The notes under the pieces were generated by a model. It was given only the letters and a program-made list of their open reading frames with translations, was not told where the DNA came from and ran no database searches. 64,000 bases of DNA from Halovenus salina (GTDB lineage: Archaea > Halobacteriota > Halobacteria > Halobacteriales > Haloarculaceae), in assembly GCF_026410925.1 (NCBI RefSeq), contig NZ_CP112972.1, positions 992,001-1,056,000 of the forward strand, written 5' to 3'. Made by a program: the position numbers and the translations under genes. This document shows, in pieces, positions 1,588 through 12,277 of the stretch (position 1 is the first letter of the stretch; each line of letters starts with the position of its first letter).

Positions 1588-2628
1588 TCAACTTCGGACC
1601 TCTTGGTCAAGATACTGATATACTTCAGGATTGACAACGTTCTGTAGTGGTTTGTCCTTGAGTACACGTTCCATCTCCTCACCAACGATTTTTATTTTTC
1701 TTTCCTTAGCCTCTGGAGAACTTCCAGCATGATGTGGTGAGTGAACTATATCGTCACATTCCAACACCGGTGAGTCCGTAGGCGGTTCTTTTTCGAAGAC
1801 ATCAATCGCAGCAGCACGAATCTGATTTGATTCAACAGCTTCGACAAGTGCTTTTTCGTCTACAAGTGGACCTCGAGCAACATTAACAAAGACTGCAGAC
1901 TCATTCATTCGATTGAATTCATCTGTAGAAAATAGGTGGTGAGTTTCCTCATTTAACGGAGCATGAAGAGTAATACAGTCAGAACGTTCAAGCAATTCGT
2001 CAAACGATACCTGCTCAACATCAAGTTGTTCGAAAATATCATCATCAAGTAGAGGGTCGAAGGCTATCACGTCCATACCAAGTCCACGAGCCATCGGGAC
2101 AGCTCGTCGACCGATGCGACCGAGTCCAACGATTCCATAGACTCCTCCCTGAATAGGATGTATTACTCGCGAAGATCCCCATCCTGTACTCTTTCGAAGT
2201 CTCCGATCGGCAGATGGTATATCGTGTGCGGCTGCCAGGGCCATTGCAATCCCGTGGCTTGCGACATCTGCTGATCCATAATCAGGTGCGTTCGAAACTG
2301 GAATGCTACGCTTCGTTGCTTCCTTTACATCGATGTTATCGTATCCAGCACCCTGACGAATAATTAGCTTCAAATCCCCAGCTGCATCCATAACACGGTC
2401 GGTGATCGGTGCCACAAAGGTGATAATAACATCAGCATCTGAGCAACTCTGTATCGTTTGCTCTTCAGAGGTACATTCCGCGTAAACGATTTCGTTCTTT
2501 GAAGAGTCTATGAATTTACCATACAGATCCCCTGTTTCTTGTAAGAGACCTTCGTATGGGTTCGGCTCTGGAAATGGTCGATCTGTTACCACAACTTTCA
2601 TACCAGATATCACTGGAAGAGTGTTCAA
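1588..2628 (-). CDS. D-isomer-specific 2-hydroxyacid dehydrogenase
   Basis: This is an NAD(P)-dependent oxidoreductase of the phosphoglycerate/lactate dehydrogenase family, interconverting 2-keto and D-2-hydroxy acids. Visible landmarks are the substrate and catalytic arginine segment RQGAGYDNID, the Rossmann nucleotide-binding motif GIVGLGRIGRR, the family signature NVARGPLVDEKALVEAV, the catalytic glutamate in DVFEKEP and the catalytic histidine in PHHAG. At 346 residues the length is normal. A second in-frame ATG ten codons in (position 2601) begins MKVVVTDRP and is an equally plausible start. It sits inside a glycan locus next to an SDR, an aldolase and a cytidylyltransferase, so a role in modifying a sugar acid is possible, but the substrate cannot be read from the sequence. 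Confidence 0.9.
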   Translation of the reverse strand: MNTLPVISGMKVVVTDRPFPEPNPYEGLLQETGDLYGKFIDSSKNEIVYAECTSEEQTIQSCSDADVIITFVAPITDRVMDAAGDLKLIIRQGAGYDNIDVKEATKRSIPVSNAPDYGSADVASHGIAMALAAAHDIPSADRRLRKSTGWGSSRVIHPIQGGVYGIVGLGRIGRRAVPMARGLGMDVIAFDPLLDDDIFEQLDVEQVSFDELLERSDCITLHAPLNEETHHLFSTDEFNRMNESAVFVNVARGPLVDEKALVEAVESNQIRAAAIDVFEKEPPTDSPVLECDDIVHSPHHAGSSPEAKERKIKIVGEEMERVLKDKPLQNVVNPEVYQYLDQEVRS

Positions 2629-3666: not shown

Positions 3667-3726
3667 GTAGAGCCGCACAGTAAGAATACCTGTGTTTTAT
3701 TCTGTTGAGTGAGCTACTGCTTTTCA

Positions 3727-4542
3727 ATGAACGATTGGAACAATACTGATCATCTTTTCGAAGGAACTACAGCTATTGTGACAGGAAGTACTCGAGGAAT
3801 TGGCGCAGTAATCGCTAGGCAATTAGCTTCGGTTGGATCCTCTGTCGTGATTAGTGGACGAACTGTTGAGGAGGGCGAGCAAGTTGTCGACGGAATAAAC
3901 GAAGCTGGCGGGGATGCAGTATTCACACAGACAGATGTTCGTGATCCCGACGACCTACAGCAACTCACTGAAACGGCAATCAGTGAGTTTGGAGGAATCG
4001 ATATTCTAGTCAATAATGCCGCATTTGAGACGGACACCAACCCGGACGAGGTCGATCTTGATACCTGGAATGCAATCCTCGAAACAGACTTCCGAGCATA
4101 CTGGCTGACTGCGAAGTACGCATATCCTTCATTAGTTAAAAGCGACCACGGATCGATCGTCAATATTGGGTCGAATCACGCGATCGCTACGCAACCAAAG
4201 AAATTCCCGTATAACGCACTCAAAGCGGGCGTCGACGGGATGACTAGATCGATGGCTGTTGCGTGGGGTGTTGATGATATCCGGGTTAACAGCGTCAATC
4301 CGGGGTGGACGATGGTCGAGCGGATAGCGGAGGAGTTAACTGACGAACAACTTGCGTACCTTGATCGTATTCACCCGTTGGGTAGAATTGGAACACCGGA
4401 AGACGTGGCAGACGCTGTTCTCTTCCTTGTGAGTGACTTGGCTGGGTTCATTACGGGGCAGTGTCTCGTGGTTGATGGCGGACGGGCGGCAGTGCTACAA
4501 GATGATCTTTACCTTGGAGATCACAACCTGAGGGAACCGTAA
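3727..4542 (+). CDS. SDR-family NAD(P)-dependent oxidoreductase
   Basis: This is a classical short-chain dehydrogenase/reductase of 271 residues. It shows the cofactor motif TGSTRGIG, the structural motif NNAA (in ILVNNAAF), a serine-bearing strand IVNIGSN, the catalytic YNALK (Y-x-x-x-K) and the C-terminal ITGQCLVVDGG typical of the family. I chose ATG 3727 rather than the in-frame GTG at 3709: it puts the Rossmann strand at the usual distance and has an AT-rich TATA-like stretch about 27 nt upstream. It starts just after the decayed IS element and precedes the GT2-MDR fusion gene in the same direction. The substrate is probably a sugar or sugar acid judging by context, but it is not determined by the sequence. 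Confidence 0.9.
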   Translation: MNDWNNTDHLFEGTTAIVTGSTRGIGAVIARQLASVGSSVVISGRTVEEGEQVVDGINEAGGDAVFTQTDVRDPDDLQQLTETAISEFGGIDILVNNAAFETDTNPDEVDLDTWNAILETDFRAYWLTAKYAYPSLVKSDHGSIVNIGSNHAIATQPKKFPYNALKAGVDGMTRSMAVAWGVDDIRVNSVNPGWTMVERIAEELTDEQLAYLDRIHPLGRIGTPEDVADAVLFLVSDLAGFITGQCLVVDGGRAAVLQDDLYLGDHNLREP

Positions 4543-4688: not shown

Positions 4689-6509
4689 ATGCCTGAAACG
4701 AGTATCATTATTCGATCATTCAACGAAGCAGAGTACATCGGCGATGTCCTCGAAGCAGTCGAGCAGCAGGAATATCGTGATTTCGAAATTATTCTCGTTG
4801 ATTCAGGGTCGACAGACGGAACGCTAGAAATTTCAGAAGAATACGTCGATGAAACTGAATTTATTGCACCGCAAAATTTCACCTTCGGATATTCATGTAA
4901 CGTCGGCTGCGAAGCTGCGTCAGGTGAATTTGTATCTTTTCTATCAGCGCACGCGATACCGACCGACGATCAGTGGTTGGGAACGATGATCGAAAACCTA
5001 TACGAAGGTGACGTCGTAATGACCTACAGTAATCAGGTAGGCGCAGAGGAGACGAAGTTTTCCGAACGACGGCTGTTTAATGAGTTGTTTCCCGAAGAAC
5101 GGAAACGGCAAACAGGCCCCGACTACTGGGCGAACAACGCTAGTTCGGCCATTAAAAAAGAGCTTTGGGAAGAGCATCAGTTCGACGAGTACTTGACCGG
5201 CCACGAGGACATCGAGTGGGCAAAGCACTTCATAGATTGGGGTTACACAGTTGTCTACGAACCGGACGCCTGTGTCTATCACATTCATGATGAGACGTGG
5301 GAACAGGTGTTTAACCGTTTTGAACGTGAAGCGATCGCAGACGTCGAGATTGGCATTAAATCCCCATCTGACAGGTGGCGTGAGTACTTATCAACTCCTA
5401 CAGACATTCTTGGGGACACAATCGCTGCCTTACGCGAGGGCAGCATCAATATAAAGACGTTCTCAAATATCGTCAAGTTCCGGTACAACCAGCACATGGG
5501 AACTGCCTCGGGGTTACAGTCCGAGCGCGATCTAGAAGCCGACCGGTTCGAATACTTTTATAGCGGCGCCAACGAGAAGGTTGTCATCGATGCTGACGGA
5601 AGTTCCTCTCTCGAACGGTCACCGCTGCCCGAACTTCGACCCAACGAGGTACTGGTTCACACCGATTACGTAGGGGTTGCTCCGGACAGTATTCACTTTG
5701 ATTGCGTTGATGGAGAGAACTCCTCGGTCGTTCCACGCGGAAACTACGTCGGCACGGTTGCGGACATCGGTGCAAACGCCAACACGGTTGCGGTTGGCGA
5801 CGTGGTCGTCGGGGGGACGACGTTCGAGTGCGGGCTGTGTAGCGCATGTAGTAACGAAGACGACCGGCCCTGTATGGATCCTGTCGAGCTGGGTGTTGAT
5901 ACAGAGGTAGGAGCGTACTCTCGATTTATCACGGTTCCGTCGGACTACGTGTGTCGACTTCCCGACGACACCGATCCACGAGAGGGAGTACTGGTTCGCA
6001 CCCTTTCACGGATCGCCTGCGAGATCGATCGTGCCACAGCGCTTATTTCAGACAAAGATAGCTGTCTGGTGATCGGCGATTCACTGCGCGCGCAAATAGT
6101 CGCCCAAGTTCTCGAACGGGAGGGTCGTGACGTCCACCGGCTGGCCGGGGGTGGAGGGATTGCCGGTGATACAGACGAACGTGATCCTTCGGCGTACGGT
6201 CTCATCATCGACACGATCGGTGAGGCGTCTACGGTTGAGCAGTACATCCAACAAACTGGCCCGGGAAAGTTCGTGCTTCTCCTCGGAAGCGGATATGGAG
6301 GATTAACCCTCGTCGATGATGCCCTTGAGGATACGACGGTAATGAAGCCCAGCGGGCCGGTGTTCGACAAATTCGACCGCGGACTCGACCTACTTTCGGA
6401 CATCGACGTACAGGCGATCCTTGACGGGACCTACGCACTCGAAGAGTACGAGACGGCGTGGCAGGCGGCCGAGGAGGGACAACAACTCCCAGCCATCGAG
6501 ATCAAGTAA
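4689..6509 (+). CDS. Family 2 glycosyltransferase fused to an MDR (alcohol dehydrogenase-like) domain
   Basis: Residues 1 to about 270 form a GT-A fold family 2 glycosyltransferase: TSIIIRSFNE, ILVDSGSTDGT, an SFLSAHAIPTDD segment where the DxD usually lies, and GHEDIEWAKH as the C-terminal acceptor-side motif. From about residue 300 the chain becomes a medium-chain dehydrogenase: an N-terminal GroES-like fold (PNEVLVHTDYVGVAPDS), GNYVGTVADIGANANTVAVGD, and a structural zinc site with Cys381, Cys384, Cys387 and Cys395. The usual catalytic G-H-E triplet is replaced by R-G-N, and the Rossmann half (CLVIGDSLRAQIVAQVLE) lacks a clear GxGxxG. The reading frame is uninterrupted, and each half is about full length. 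The dehydrogenase half may therefore be structural or non-redox. It starts after a GAGG ribosome-binding-like sequence. Confidence 0.85.
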   Translation: MPETSIIIRSFNEAEYIGDVLEAVEQQEYRDFEIILVDSGSTDGTLEISEEYVDETEFIAPQNFTFGYSCNVGCEAASGEFVSFLSAHAIPTDDQWLGTMIENLYEGDVVMTYSNQVGAEETKFSERRLFNELFPEERKRQTGPDYWANNASSAIKKELWEEHQFDEYLTGHEDIEWAKHFIDWGYTVVYEPDACVYHIHDETWEQVFNRFEREAIADVEIGIKSPSDRWREYLSTPTDILGDTIAALREGSINIKTFSNIVKFRYNQHMGTASGLQSERDLEADRFEYFYSGANEKVVIDADGSSSLERSPLPELRPNEVLVHTDYVGVAPDSIHFDCVDGENSSVVPRGNYVGTVADIGANANTVAVGDVVVGGTTFECGLCSACSNEDDRPCMDPVELGVDTEVGAYSRFITVPSDYVCRLPDDTDPREGVLVRTLSRIACEIDRATALISDKDSCLVIGDSLRAQIVAQVLEREGRDVHRLAGGGGIAGDTDERDPSAYGLIIDTIGEASTVEQYIQQTGPGKFVLLLGSGYGGLTLVDDALEDTTVMKPSGPVFDKFDRGLDLLSDIDVQAILDGTYALEEYETAWQAAEEGQQLPAIEIK

Positions 6510-6529: not shown

Positions 6530-7312
6530 CTACCGGTCGTAATCGCTGGCAACCGATCGAATCTCGTCGAGGTCGTTTCCAAACACTTCCGAAAGCACGG
6601 TGATGTCGAGACTGTACGCCAGCAGCCGGTATCCCTCTTCGATACGCTGGGTTGCCTCGTCGACGTCAGGTTGGACTACGTGGGTGCCGAGAACTATATC
6701 GTGTTCTCTACAGGCAGCTTCGGCGGTATCGATTGCCTCCTCGAACTTCGGATGATCGAACTGGCCCGTGACATTGAGGGAAGCGCTGAGATCGTAGGGA
6801 CCGAATAGGACGGCGTCAATTCCGTCGACTGCGAGGATTTCGTCAATGTTCTCGATCGCTCGCCGGTGTTCGATCTGGACGCAGACGAGCGTTTCATCGT
6901 TGTCGTAGGGGACCGAGGCGTCGAAATTGGCACCGTAGGTGTTGGAACGGGCGAATCCAACGCCACGCTTGCCTTCAGGGGGATACTTAGCGGCTTTAAC
7001 GACTTCACAGGCTTGCTCGGGAGTGTTGATCAACGGTGCGATGACGCCTTTCGCGCCAGCGTCAAGATGGCGCTTGACGGTCTCGTAGTTCGTTTCTGGC
7101 AGTCGTACGAGGGGCGTGCAATCGGAATCGCCAGCTGCGATGGCTTGGTACAGTGCTTGAGCTTCAGTGATGCCAATAGCAGAGTGTTCGGTGTCCACAG
7201 TGAGGAAATCAAACCCCAAGGATGCGAGCAGTTCGGCGACAACGGGGCTATTGGTATTGAGCCAGGTGCCGATTGCTGGCTCCTCCTGAATACGCTCTCG
7301 CAGCGGTTCCAT
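6530..7312 (-). CDS. HpcH/HpaI-family aldolase
   Basis: This is a class II (metal-dependent) pyruvate aldolase of the HpaI/GarL/RhmA family, 260 residues, a normal length. Visible active-site elements are the start motif GTWLNTNSP, the histidine in VDTEHSAI, the arginine in TPLVRLPE, DAGAKGVIAPL, the metal-binding glutamate in CVQIEHRRAI and the aspartate segment LFGPYDLSASL. The family cleaves or forms 2-keto-3-deoxy acids from pyruvate and an aldehyde. Only 2 nt separate its start codon from the stop of the upstream cytidylyltransferase gene, so both are almost certainly cotranscribed and may act on the same keto-deoxy sugar acid; that last step is inference. It converges with the GT2-MDR gene. 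Confidence 0.9.
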   Translation of the reverse strand: MEPLRERIQEEPAIGTWLNTNSPVVAELLASLGFDFLTVDTEHSAIGITEAQALYQAIAAGDSDCTPLVRLPETNYETVKRHLDAGAKGVIAPLINTPEQACEVVKAAKYPPEGKRGVGFARSNTYGANFDASVPYDNDETLVCVQIEHRRAIENIDEILAVDGIDAVLFGPYDLSASLNVTGQFDHPKFEEAIDTAEAACREHDIVLGTHVVQPDVDEATQRIEEGYRLLAYSLDITVLSEVFGNDLDEIRSVASDYDR

Positions 7313-7314
7313 CG

Positions 7315-8073
7315 TTAATCATCGCCCCCGTACTCGTCCCAGACAACCCGCTCCTCGAACTCGCGGAGATCCTCACGATTCCGTTCATAGAAGGCATGTA
7401 GCTGGGCGTTGAAGTGGTTATGAATGTCCCGACCGGTGGTCCAGGTGCGGACAATCGGTTGGCACTTTTCACCCATCCACCACCAAGTTCCAGGGCCAGA
7501 TTTTTCTTGAACAGTTTCTTTTCGGAACGCCCAGATTCCCTGGTCATAGTAGAATGCAGAGTCATATGTCTTCCGATCAGTCTCGGCATCCTCACTTACC
7601 TCATCGTAGGCGGTGAGGTACCCCTCATCATTAACTTTCATAGCGCGGATCGGATGGTCGTCGGCAGCCTCCCAAACAGTCATCGTTGAGTCAATCTCGG
7701 GACGTTCGTGAAGGAGTTCGACCGCCTGATCGATAAGATCAGAATCGACCATTGTGGTGTTTCCAAGAAGAACGACGACGTTCTCTAGATCCTCTACTTG
7801 TTCGTCGACGGTCTCTGTGGCATGCTTAATTACGTCACCATGACCGCCGTCCCCCCACAGCTCCTCAGGACGCCAGATGATTTCTGATCCCAACTTACGA
7901 GCGACATCAGCGATTTTATCACCATTCGTTGAGGTATAGCTCTTGGAAATCGTTTCGGCTTCTTCAGCGGCCTTGACAGGATAGCTCACGAGCGAGCGGT
8001 TGGCCACTTCCATGACGTTCTTATTGGGAATAGAAGTGCTGCCCGCCCTCGCAGTAATTATGGCGACATCCAT
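7315..8073 (-). CDS. CMP-sugar synthetase (acylneuraminate cytidylyltransferase family)
   Basis: This 252-residue nucleotidyltransferase resembles NeuA/KdsB-type enzymes, which activate ulosonic acids with CTP to give CMP-sugars. It shows AIITARAGSTSIPNKNV, a variant of the IPARGGSKGIPxKN nucleotide-binding loop, then YTSTNGDKIADVARKLG and RPEELWGD with the expected spacing, followed by VVLLGNTTMVDSDLIDQAV. The start at 8073 places the first strand immediately at the N-terminus, as in the family. It leads a two-gene unit with the HpaI-type aldolase. No NeuB-type synthase gene is present in the window, so whether the substrate is a sialic-acid-like, KDO-like or other keto-deoxy sugar is open. 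Confidence 0.85.
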   Translation of the reverse strand: MDVAIITARAGSTSIPNKNVMEVANRSLVSYPVKAAEEAETISKSYTSTNGDKIADVARKLGSEIIWRPEELWGDGGHGDVIKHATETVDEQVEDLENVVVLLGNTTMVDSDLIDQAVELLHERPEIDSTMTVWEAADDHPIRAMKVNDEGYLTAYDEVSEDAETDRKTYDSAFYYDQGIWAFRKETVQEKSGPGTWWWMGEKCQPIVRTWTTGRDIHNHFNAQLHAFYERNREDLREFEERVVWDEYGGDD

Positions 8074-8131: not shown

Positions 8132-8407
8132 TTAATTGAGTTTCCTCGTTATCTTTTCTTGAGCGTTTCCATTTGTCGCAATAAGGCCGCAACTATCTAG
8201 AGACCACGGATCGCCGTGGAGATCAGTTACTTCATCGCCAGCTTGTCAAACAAGTTTGACGCCAGCAATAGTATCCCATGGGTTTGGATCTGGTTGTGTA
8301 GCAAAACAAGCATCTAATGCACCACGAGCAACCAGCCCTAACGTGAGTTGAGCACTACCAGTCGGCGAAGATTTCCAAACTCCAACAAATATCTGAAAAT
8401 TCTTCAT
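8132..8407 (-). pseudogene. Inositol monophosphatase-family C-terminal remnant
   Basis: On the minus strand one frame reads the C-terminal landmarks of the IMPase/SuhB/CysQ family: SPTGSAQLTLGLVARGALDA, then NPWDTIAGVKLV, an in-frame TGA at 8246-8248, QAGDEVTDLHGDPW and LIATNGN, ending at 8132-8134. The family's metal-binding WD in NPWD is preserved. The N-terminal half, including the DPLDGT motif, is missing, and the fragment stops against the end of the IS1595-like element at about 8410. It is a broken gene; the ATG at 8407 is probably accidental. I looked for the 5' half on the other side of the IS element (9457-9587) and did not find it. Confidence 0.7.
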
Positions 8408-8409
8408 GC

Positions 8410-9456
8410 TCTTCGGTAGACTGGCGGAACCAAGAGTATTAGCGCCTCTGGCTGGACAGAAACGAACAGGTCCAACGAACGCCCTGCCCTTGGCCAGAGG
8501 CTATCGGAACCTGTGGAACTGGGAGCAATAGACTTTCGGCCCGAGCCGCTCGATGCCATTGTCGCGCGGCGTCTCAAGGAGATTTGGGTGGCGCAATCCT
8601 GCCCACACTGCGAGCAGAAAACACCCCAGGCACTCGACGGATCTGATCGTATCTGGTGTAGCCACTGCAACCGGAAAACCACGTACACGCGGGGAACGCC
8701 GTTCTACGATTTGGAACTCGCTCCTGGCGAGTTCCTCATCGCCGTCATCCTCTACGCTGATACGCTGTTGAGTATTAACCAGATCGCGTTTCTGCTCTCG
8801 CCGTGCTACAAGACTCTCCACGACAACATCAGAGAGGTCGAAACAACCTTTTGTCGCGGATTTCCGACTGTCTGGGATCACATCTCCCAGACAGTCGGCG
8901 GCCCGACACAGGTCGATGAAACCCAGCAGGTGTATTCCGGTTTAAAAGGACAAGATCCGCCACGGGAGGGACTTGACCGCGGTGGGTCGCTCGAGGGCGG
9001 ACGCACCCGTTGGACAGGGGATCAAGGAGACGAACTGACGCTCGTCGCGGCCTGCCGCGACGTGCTTCGCGTGGTGTCAGCGCAAGAGGGAAGCGACTAC
9101 GATGAGGATTTGGGTCCAGTGATTGAGGAAGCAGACAATCTCTCCCAGCCGCTGGGAGAGGTCTGGACCAATGGACTGCCCGACTACCGAGGTATGGAGC
9201 ACGACCACCGGTACGTTGTCCACGACGAGAAATACGTTTCCAACGAGGGCGTCCACACGAATCAGGGAGAGTGTCTCTGGTTGCTGCTCCAACCGTAGCT
9301 GGCGAAGTTCCGCGGCCTCTCCAAGCCCGGCTTGGAGCAGGCCGCTCGTACCTACGGTTTCCTCCGGGCACTGAAACTTACTGGGGCACCGATCCACAGT
9401 CTCGTCGATCGTATCGCCATCAACGTATCCAGCTAGTTCCGCCAGTCTACCGAAGA
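8410..9456 (+). mobile_element. IS1595-like insertion sequence with 21-bp inverted repeats
   Basis: Perfect terminal inverted repeats flank the element: TCTTCGG followed by TAGACTGGCGGAAC at 8410-8430 and the exact reverse complement at 9436-9456. The single gene inside is a transposase with a premature stop. The flanks show no convincing target duplication, which suggests rearrangement after insertion. The element is about 1.05 kb, a normal size for the family. Confidence 0.8.
8513..9436 (+). pseudogene. IS1595-like transposase with premature TAG
   Basis: The frame opens at GTG 8513 and shows an N-terminal zinc ribbon with the pairs CPHC and CSHC, followed by a DDE-type catalytic region (QVDETQQVYSG with the first Asp, later DYRGMEHDHRYVVH and NEGVHTNQGECLW). 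A TAG at 9296-9298 interrupts it after LLLQP. The same frame continues as LAKFRGLSKPGLEQAARTYG and LKLTGAPIHSLVDRI to a natural stop at 9434-9436 inside the right inverted repeat. A TGG to TAG change (PWLAKF to P-stop-LAKF) would explain the break. Full length would be 307 residues. The family call is from the zinc ribbon plus DDE layout and is fairly, not fully, certain. The region 9457-9587 after the element holds nothing I can identify. Confidence 0.7.
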
Positions 9457-11179: not shown

Positions 11180-12277
11180 ATGGTTGATGGTGTGCCATTC
11201 ACAGATATTCATATGGACGACGAGACAATTGAAGCAGTGGGTGATGTTCTTCGGGGGGGAAGATACGTCAAGGGGCCGGTCGTCGAAGCCTTCGAAGAGG
11301 AGTTTGCCGACCACTGTGGCACAGAGTACGCAGTCGGCGTCAACAGCGGGACTGCCGCTATCCTGCTCGGATTACAGGCTGCGGAAATCGGCGAAGGAGA
11401 TGACGTATTTGTGCCTGCCCACACCTACTTTGCTTCTGTTAGCCCAGTTCTCTTTCTAGATGCGAACCCGGTGTTTGTCGACGTACGTACTGATACGTAT
11501 ACTATCGACCCAAACGACCTCGAACAGAAGATAACCACGGCAGACAACCCTGCTGCAGTGATCCCTGTCCATATTTACGGACAGATGGCAGAGATGGACC
11601 GTGTAACCGAGATAGCCAAAACACACAACCTCCATGTCGTCTCAGACTCCTGTCAAGCACACTTCGCGGAACAGAACGGACAGAAGGCTGGGAGCATTGC
11701 AGATATTGGAGCCTTCAGTTTCTATCCCTCGAAGAACATGACTGTCGCGGGTGACGGTGGGATGCTCGTGACCGACGACGACGAATTGGCCCGACGCGCA
11801 CGTGCGCTCCGAAACCACGGCCGGGACGAAGCAGGGGTTCACCGACACCTTGGTCTGAACTATCGGATGAGTGAAGTACTCGGTGCGGTCGGAAAGCAGC
11901 AATTGAAACGCGTCGACGACTGGAACGCAGGTCGACGCCGTGCAGCGTCAGTGTACGACGACCGCTTGGCCGACATCGACGAGGTGGTTGCGCCAGCAGA
12001 AAATACAGATAACAAACACGTTTATCACCTGTACGTTGTCCAAGTTCCCGACCGAAGCAACCTACGTGAGTATCTGGACGAAAACGGAATTGGAACCGGA
12101 ATCCACTACCCGACACCTGCACACGAGCACCCTGCGGTAGTCGAGCGCTGTGGCGAGACGAGCATTGAGTTCGTCGAGGGCCTCTGTGAAAGAATCATCT
12201 CGCTACCGATGCACCCGAGACTATCCGAAGAAGAGGTTCACACAGTCTGTGACCACATCGAGGAGTACTACACATGA
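11180..12277 (+). CDS. DegT/DnrJ/EryC1/StrS-family sugar aminotransferase
   Basis: A PLP-dependent aminotransferase that converts a keto group on a nucleotide-linked sugar to an amine. Visible landmarks are GVNSGTAAILLGL (cofactor phosphate site), VFVPAHTYFAS, VIPVHIYGQMAEMD, the DSCQAH segment (Asp contacts the PLP pyridine) and the Schiff-base lysine in SFYPSKNMTVAGDGGML, then NYRMSEVLGAVGKQQLKR. At 365 residues it is standard length. Its stop overlaps the start of the Gfo/Idh oxidoreductase by 4 nt (ATGA), so the two are translationally coupled. That order matches the 3-keto sugar oxidase/aminotransferase pair of diamino-uronic acid synthesis (WlbA/WlbC type), which is the likeliest role here; the positional specificity is inference. 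Confidence 0.92.
   Translation: MVDGVPFTDIHMDDETIEAVGDVLRGGRYVKGPVVEAFEEEFADHCGTEYAVGVNSGTAAILLGLQAAEIGEGDDVFVPAHTYFASVSPVLFLDANPVFVDVRTDTYTIDPNDLEQKITTADNPAAVIPVHIYGQMAEMDRVTEIAKTHNLHVVSDSCQAHFAEQNGQKAGSIADIGAFSFYPSKNMTVAGDGGMLVTDDDELARRARALRNHGRDEAGVHRHLGLNYRMSEVLGAVGKQQLKRVDDWNAGRRRAASVYDDRLADIDEVVAPAENTDNKHVYHLYVVQVPDRSNLREYLDENGIGTGIHYPTPAHEHPAVVERCGETSIEFVEGLCERIISLPMHPRLSEEEVHTVCDHIEEYYT

Follow-up and report, generated by a model that had tools for sequence, protein, structure and literature searches.

What does a dehydrogenase do when it is fused behind a glycosyltransferase and has lost its active site? The question is raised by a gene of Halovenus salina located in a stretch of 64,000 nucleotides, here called the window (contig NZ_CP112972.1, positions 992,001 to 1,056,000 of the forward strand, assembly GCF_026410925.1). 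Medium-chain and short-chain dehydrogenases are abbreviated MDR and SDR throughout. The gene joins a GT2-type glycosyltransferase (GT) of the GT-A fold to an MDR, and comparison of sequences indicates that the fusion is real and conserved and that the dehydrogenase is decayed in the window copy. We favor, with moderate confidence, descent from an ancient bifunctional enzyme in which the redox half, once redundant, decayed next to an SDR. The fusion is rare and phylogenetically scattered, and it is tied to a compact cassette for an apparent acidic sugar activated with cytidine monophosphate (CMP). The gene and its parts, in window coordinates, are as follows.

4689..6509, + strand: GT2-MDR fusion gene, 606 residues, single ATG frame with Pfam matches
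4689..5558, + strand: GT-A/GT2 domain, residues 1 to 290; xED base kept (E173-D174), S86-A87-H88 at the DxD position
5559..6008, + strand: MDR catalytic (GroES-like) lobe, residues 291 to 440; structural cysteines kept, ligands replaced by A331, G351, and R437
6009..6506, + strand: MDR Rossmann lobe and C-terminal tail, residues 441 to 606; GxGxxG lost (G463, S465, A468)

The fused gene and its dehydrogenase active site

The 606-residue ATG frame runs without interruption. Residues 5 to 140 match PF00535 (84.9 bits; cut-off, 23.3), which identifies the GT-A sequence core, and residues 318 to 426 match PF08240, ADH_N (47.2 bits); the match to the cofactor domain PF13602 lies under its cut-off (17.9 of 27 bits). 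An AlphaFold model followed by a fold search, the rows of which cover the MDR half, predicts an MDR fold for that half, with an unsure mutual orientation of the domains (predicted template modeling score [pTM], 0.59).

The Cys, His, and Glu positions that provide the catalytic zinc ligands of MDRs are all altered in the window protein: Cys is replaced by A331, the GHE triplet by R350-G351-N352, and Glu by R437. The Rossmann fingerprint GxGxxG reads G463-x-S465-xx-A468, and the structural zinc cysteines Cys381, Cys384, Cys387, and Cys395 are all present. The preliminary description of this locus had reported the single frame joining a GT2 to a full MDR, the retained cysteines, the R-G-N triplet, and a weak Rossmann fingerprint; each is borne out, and the degeneration is wider than described, extending to A331 and R437. 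Because both the catalytic ligands and the nucleotide fingerprint are lost, redox chemistry by the window MDR half is unlikely, as that description had also suspected.

The other two haloarchaeal fusions, from Halobellus clavatus (G276) and a genome designated G327, are degenerate as well. The Halobellus protein has Q, E, and S at the catalytic positions and G-x-T-xx-A as its fingerprint; that of G327 has S, R, and R and is the only one of the three to retain the nicotinamide adenine dinucleotide (NAD) fingerprint (GGGLLG). The zinc ligands are thus lost in 3/3 haloarchaeal fusions, while the Cys, His, and Glu ligands and GxGxxG are intact in all 16 aligned bacterial rows (17 loci minus L080, which has an in-frame stop). 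An intact site in close relatives, which the preliminary description had thought would undermine its reading, therefore exists in the bacterial fusions and not in the haloarchaeal ones. All three haloarchaeal rows, and 13 of the 16 bacterial ones, retain the four structural cysteines. CGSD and GHE are present in 27/27 free haloarchaeal MDRs; just 8 of these 27 fit a narrow GxGxxG pattern, which is therefore no control for the fingerprint.

Compared with zinc MDR polyol dehydrogenases (ketose reductase/sorbitol dehydrogenase, 1e3j; threonine dehydrogenase, 2dq4), the fused MDR has a similar predicted fold and the structural Cys4, and the bacterial fusions share the catalytic residues; the window copy differs in lacking the three zinc ligands and the NAD fingerprint and in sitting behind a GT.

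Divergence is concentrated in the same half. Among haloarchaeal copies, the MDR halves are 25 to 35% identical versus 60 to 72% for the strongly conserved GT halves, and by lobe the identity is 39 to 55% (GroES-like) and 13 to 25% (Rossmann); among bacterial copies, the two halves are equally conserved (MDR, 52%; GT, 53%).

Individual bacterial loci show other changes. Two Nealsonbacteria fusions (L077 and L078) lack the structural Cys4 and keep the catalytic residues, the reverse of the haloarchaeal decay, and the fusion at L132 lacks one structural cysteine. The fusion gene of L080 (Bdellovibrionales) has a single in-frame TGA in its MDR half, at 11234-11236.

Distribution and descent of the fusion

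Strong GT and MDR matches lie in one frame in at least 3 of 391 haloarchaeal genomes (those of the window, Halobellus clavatus, and G327), a sample in which scoring was limited to a few candidates per genome and remote fusions could be missed; by eye, no other coincidence of the two was seen among the matches listed. The three fall in three families, and the window protein shares 53 and 48% identity with the other two. No further haloarchaeal fusion was found in the families of G276 (170 genomes, E 1e-55), G327 (125 genomes, E 1e-55), and the window (146 genomes, E 1e-40), samples that overlap the 391.

Bacterial fusions were found at 17 loci in about ten phyla, counting the near copies L079 and L081 separately. 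The hosts of 15 of them belong to Pseudomonadota, Nealsonbacteria, Thermodesulfobacteriota, Bdellovibrionota, Omnitrophota, Nitrospirota, Lindowbacteria, Verrucomicrobiota, Acidobacteriota, and Gemmatimonadota. Searched with only the window protein, genome contigs gave no confirmed relative; a profile search with a three-row alignment gave 29 loci, and 15 bacterial ones match to residue 591 or beyond. Phylum samples added two bacterial fusions beyond the center genome, one among 297 and one among 227 genomes, and a third sample (218 genomes) held the fusion in its center genome only. None of 181 plasmid records covers 80% of the query. The proviso in the preliminary description that homologues might always be separate genes does not apply, because the fusion occurs in three families of haloarchaea and at 17 loci in bacteria. 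Recurrence of the two-domain frame in other genomes means that it is not a chance frame. The literature searches met no title or abstract start that describes the fusion; zinc-binding dehydrogenases are frequent inserted modules according to PMC13114784.

In an MDR tree, the 17 fused halves split from 27 free haloarchaeal MDRs with branch support of 100/100, and a free haloarchaeal MDR as the source of the second half is unsupported. The free MDRs in this tree are haloarchaeal only, with no bacterial free MDR, and the tree carries a long-branch warning. Halorussus ruber has the GT without an MDR, and its GT nests inside the haloarchaeal fused clade (98/93 and 98/94 in GT trees), which indicates that the MDR was lost there. 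The G+C content of the window gene is 0.483 in the GT part versus 0.573 and 0.584 in the MDR part; since the step has the same direction in Halobellus and G327, no recent junction is read from composition.

The genome of H. salina holds one full copy of the fusion gene and a short relic. The relic, at 7235-7372 of a 19-kb stretch that overlaps the left edge of the window (L036; about 982231-982371 of the contig), encodes 46 residues that are 46% identical to the fusion C terminus, and it represents what is left of the C terminus of a further MDR or fusion copy. It lies about 14 kb upstream, some 380 bases past an ABC transporter gene, the product of which is 66% identical to the transporter near the Halobellus fusion.

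The cassette, the transferase, and the donor sugar

The neighboring SDR and cytidylyltransferase and the missing DxD of the transferase had gone unmentioned in the earlier account. The relevant neighbors in the window are as follows.

1588..2628, - strand: D-2-hydroxyacid dehydrogenase of the cassette (Pfam and cassette profile scan)
3709..4542, + strand: SDR; TGxxxGxG (TGSTRGIG) and YxxxK (YNALK) kept
6530..7312, - strand: HpcH/HpaI-type aldolase, under the equivalog cut-off
7315..8073, - strand: cytidylyltransferase (PF02348); PseF-like, under that model's cut-off

Profiles were used to scan 39 stretches representing 38 places (G327 is in two pieces); the plasmid loci L126 to L128 were included, and the nine remotest loci (L095 to L103), L072, and L129 were left out. 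The listed neighbors of L129 name neither an SDR nor a cytidylyltransferase. Cytidylyltransferase and D-2-hydroxyacid dehydrogenase are both present in 29 of the 38 places. By these profiles and alignments, the family appears as a DxD-less GT-A transferase with a zinc MDR, mostly in a cytidylyltransferase/2-hydroxyacid dehydrogenase cassette.

The SDR is distributed differently. It is near none of the 17 bacterial fusions, 14 of which show both other cassette genes, and near 10 of 18 GT-only loci, that is, 10 of the 13 GT-only loci with both other genes; the remaining five (L071, L083, L131, L133, and L135) are cut short or missing a gene. Among haloarchaeal fused loci, two of three have it, including that of the window. 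Fisher's test of 0/13 fused versus 10/13 GT-only places, which omits fused L079, L081, L089, and L130, gives a p of 1e-4 with kinship ignored. Compared with a GT-only haloarchaeal cassette (L069), the window shows 73% identity in the SDR and 72% in the 2-hydroxyacid dehydrogenase, a resemblance suggesting that an SDR cassette and the fused gene came to be joined. An SDR of the cassette kind is lacking in G327, the best match there being 38% identical versus 62% in Halobellus.

In the transferase half, S-x-H takes the place of DxD and the ED base is invariant in all 20 aligned family members. As a control, DxD is present in 16 of 17 weaker haloarchaeal GT2 matches (L050 to L066), the other aligning unclearly; the four nearer matches (L046 to L049) all have D-A-T type motifs. 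The family thus shares the GT-A sequence core and xED base with GT2/GT-A transferases (PF00535; chondroitin synthase, 2z86; SpsA, 1qg8) and differs in its S-x-H and attached MDR. According to PMC11231755, the GT2 DxD coordinates a metal that stabilizes the nucleotide diphosphate, and PMC7185993 reports that some GT-A families lost DxD and metal. A CMP-sugar has no diphosphate, so S-x-H fits a CMP-activated donor.

The cassette may supply such a donor. The cytidylyltransferase would activate the sugar with CMP, and the aldolase is a possible source of a 2-keto-3-deoxy acid, judging from their context. Beside the Halobellus fusion lie a galactonate dehydratase (610 bits; cut-off, 311) and a KdsB-subfamily enzyme, and the window aldolase route and the Halobellus dehydratase route could both yield a 2-keto-3-deoxy acid. 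For a KdsB-type cytidylyltransferase, the H. salina genome gives only a 36% match over part of the length, elsewhere in the genome. An STT3/AglB match sits some 4 kb away from the fusion in Halobellus, but the window and L036 show none; a role in N-glycosylation is likely only by analogy. The N-glycan cluster for legionaminic acid of Halorubrum sp. PV6 (PMC6137143) is comparable as a haloarchaeal glycan cluster with CMP-sugar activation; it has NeuA/B/C-type genes, and the word dehydrogenase is absent from the main text of that source.

Explanations for the dehydrogenase half

In the favored reading, the bacterial protein would be bifunctional, oxidizing or reducing a sugar or its precursor and also transferring the sugar. 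In haloarchaea, the fused gene would have ended up in one cassette with an SDR responsible for the redox step, and its MDR would have turned into a folded pseudo-dehydrogenase; any retention of this half would be as a scaffold built on the structural-zinc lobe. With lower certainty, the GT half would take a CMP-activated 2-keto-3-deoxy (ulosonic) acid as its donor and add it to a surface glycan. The earlier suggestion that the second half helps to build the sugar fits the bacterial members and not the window copy. The family forms a natural series (MDR intact; zinc ligands lost and fingerprint kept; both lost; MDR lost) that lets one follow the decay of a fused domain when another enzyme may do its work.

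Several observations weigh against this reading. G327 has neither the cassette SDR nor the zinc ligands, leaving its redox step unexplained. Three of the 13 GT-only cassettes (L126, L128, and L136) have no SDR, and three of 17 bacterial fused loci (L081, L089, and L130) have neither cytidylyltransferase nor 2-hydroxyacid dehydrogenase. Three fused stretches (L076, L081, and L090) are shorter than 5 kb, and the SDR profile was built from seven of the SDRs, five GT-only and both haloarchaeal fused-locus ones. The fused and GT-only states differ by one or two supported tree changes, which amount to one or two independent contrasts with no statistical power; the mutual exclusion of SDR and MDR is therefore a pattern and not a test. 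The MDR tree, which lacks bacterial free MDRs and carries a long-branch warning, does not prove that the fusion arose only once. Loss of DxD is not unique to the fusion family, as L046 to L049 show. The alignment given to AlphaFold contained intact bacterial relatives, which may lend their fold to the window MDR. Finally, the Rossmann half is stop-free in all three haloarchaeal copies, whereas only 8 of 400 neutral simulations stay open, and it scores above shuffles; for both reasons, it is not free of constraint.

A wider proposal is more tentative: the fused and unfused family together would be metal-independent enzymes of the GT-A/GT2 fold that transfer CMP-activated 2-keto-3-deoxy acids, the fused MDR acting on donor or product and the haloarchaeal copies being mid-decay after displacement by the SDR. 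GT30, GT99, and GT107 are transferases that use CMP-activated 3-deoxy-D-manno-octulosonic acid (CMP-Kdo). If the proposal holds, a CMP keto-deoxy donor would be shared with the CMP-Kdo transferases of GT137, the modeled fold of which is unlike known GTs according to PMC11231755, whereas the window protein matches GT2 profiles. With a CMP-ulosonate donor, the GT2 fold would join the few folds known (PMC11231755) to use such donors.

Less probable than that is a haloarchaeal MDR half that is a functionless passenger, in frame for want of time or because stops would destabilize the GT. The low Rossmann identity, the loss of the MDR in Halorussus ruber, and the upstream relic of another copy would fit a passenger, but the structural Cys4 of all three copies, the better conserved GroES-like lobe, and the rarity of open frames in the neutral simulations speak against one. 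Somewhat more doubtful again is repurposing of the MDR half for binding or assembly (acceptor, nucleotide, partner, or dimerization) needed for transfer: retention of the structural-zinc cysteines and a fold predicted to be intact argue for it, and the Halorussus ruber loss and the unsure domain orientation against it. Some MDRs perform zinc-independent redox chemistry. That the fused half still does so is improbable; the GGGLLG of G327, where no cassette SDR is present, agrees with it, but in the window and Halobellus copies only one of the three fingerprint glycines survives, and similarity in the cofactor lobe is mostly gone. A recent frame joining or assembly error, for which nothing was found, is rejected with near certainty, as conserved fusions in genomes of many groups have the same domain order and boundary.

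Other features of these loci are minor. A PF04199 cyclase (arylformamidase-like, under the model cut-off) recurs in bacterial cassettes, for example at 7227-7862 of L085 (Desulfobacterales), and the scanned haloarchaeal stretches gave no match to it. Overlapping open reading frames at 8404-9400 of the window, between the cytidylyltransferase and sulfatase genes, look by eye like a mobile-element remnant; no Pfam family matches the frame at 8513-9298. L036 11377-15216, immediately upstream of the window, carries consecutive genes for NeuB, UDP-GlcNAc 2-epimerase, cytidylyltransferase, and 2-hydroxyacid dehydrogenase (Pfam), a second cluster of CMP-sugar type with a 2-hydroxyacid dehydrogenase.
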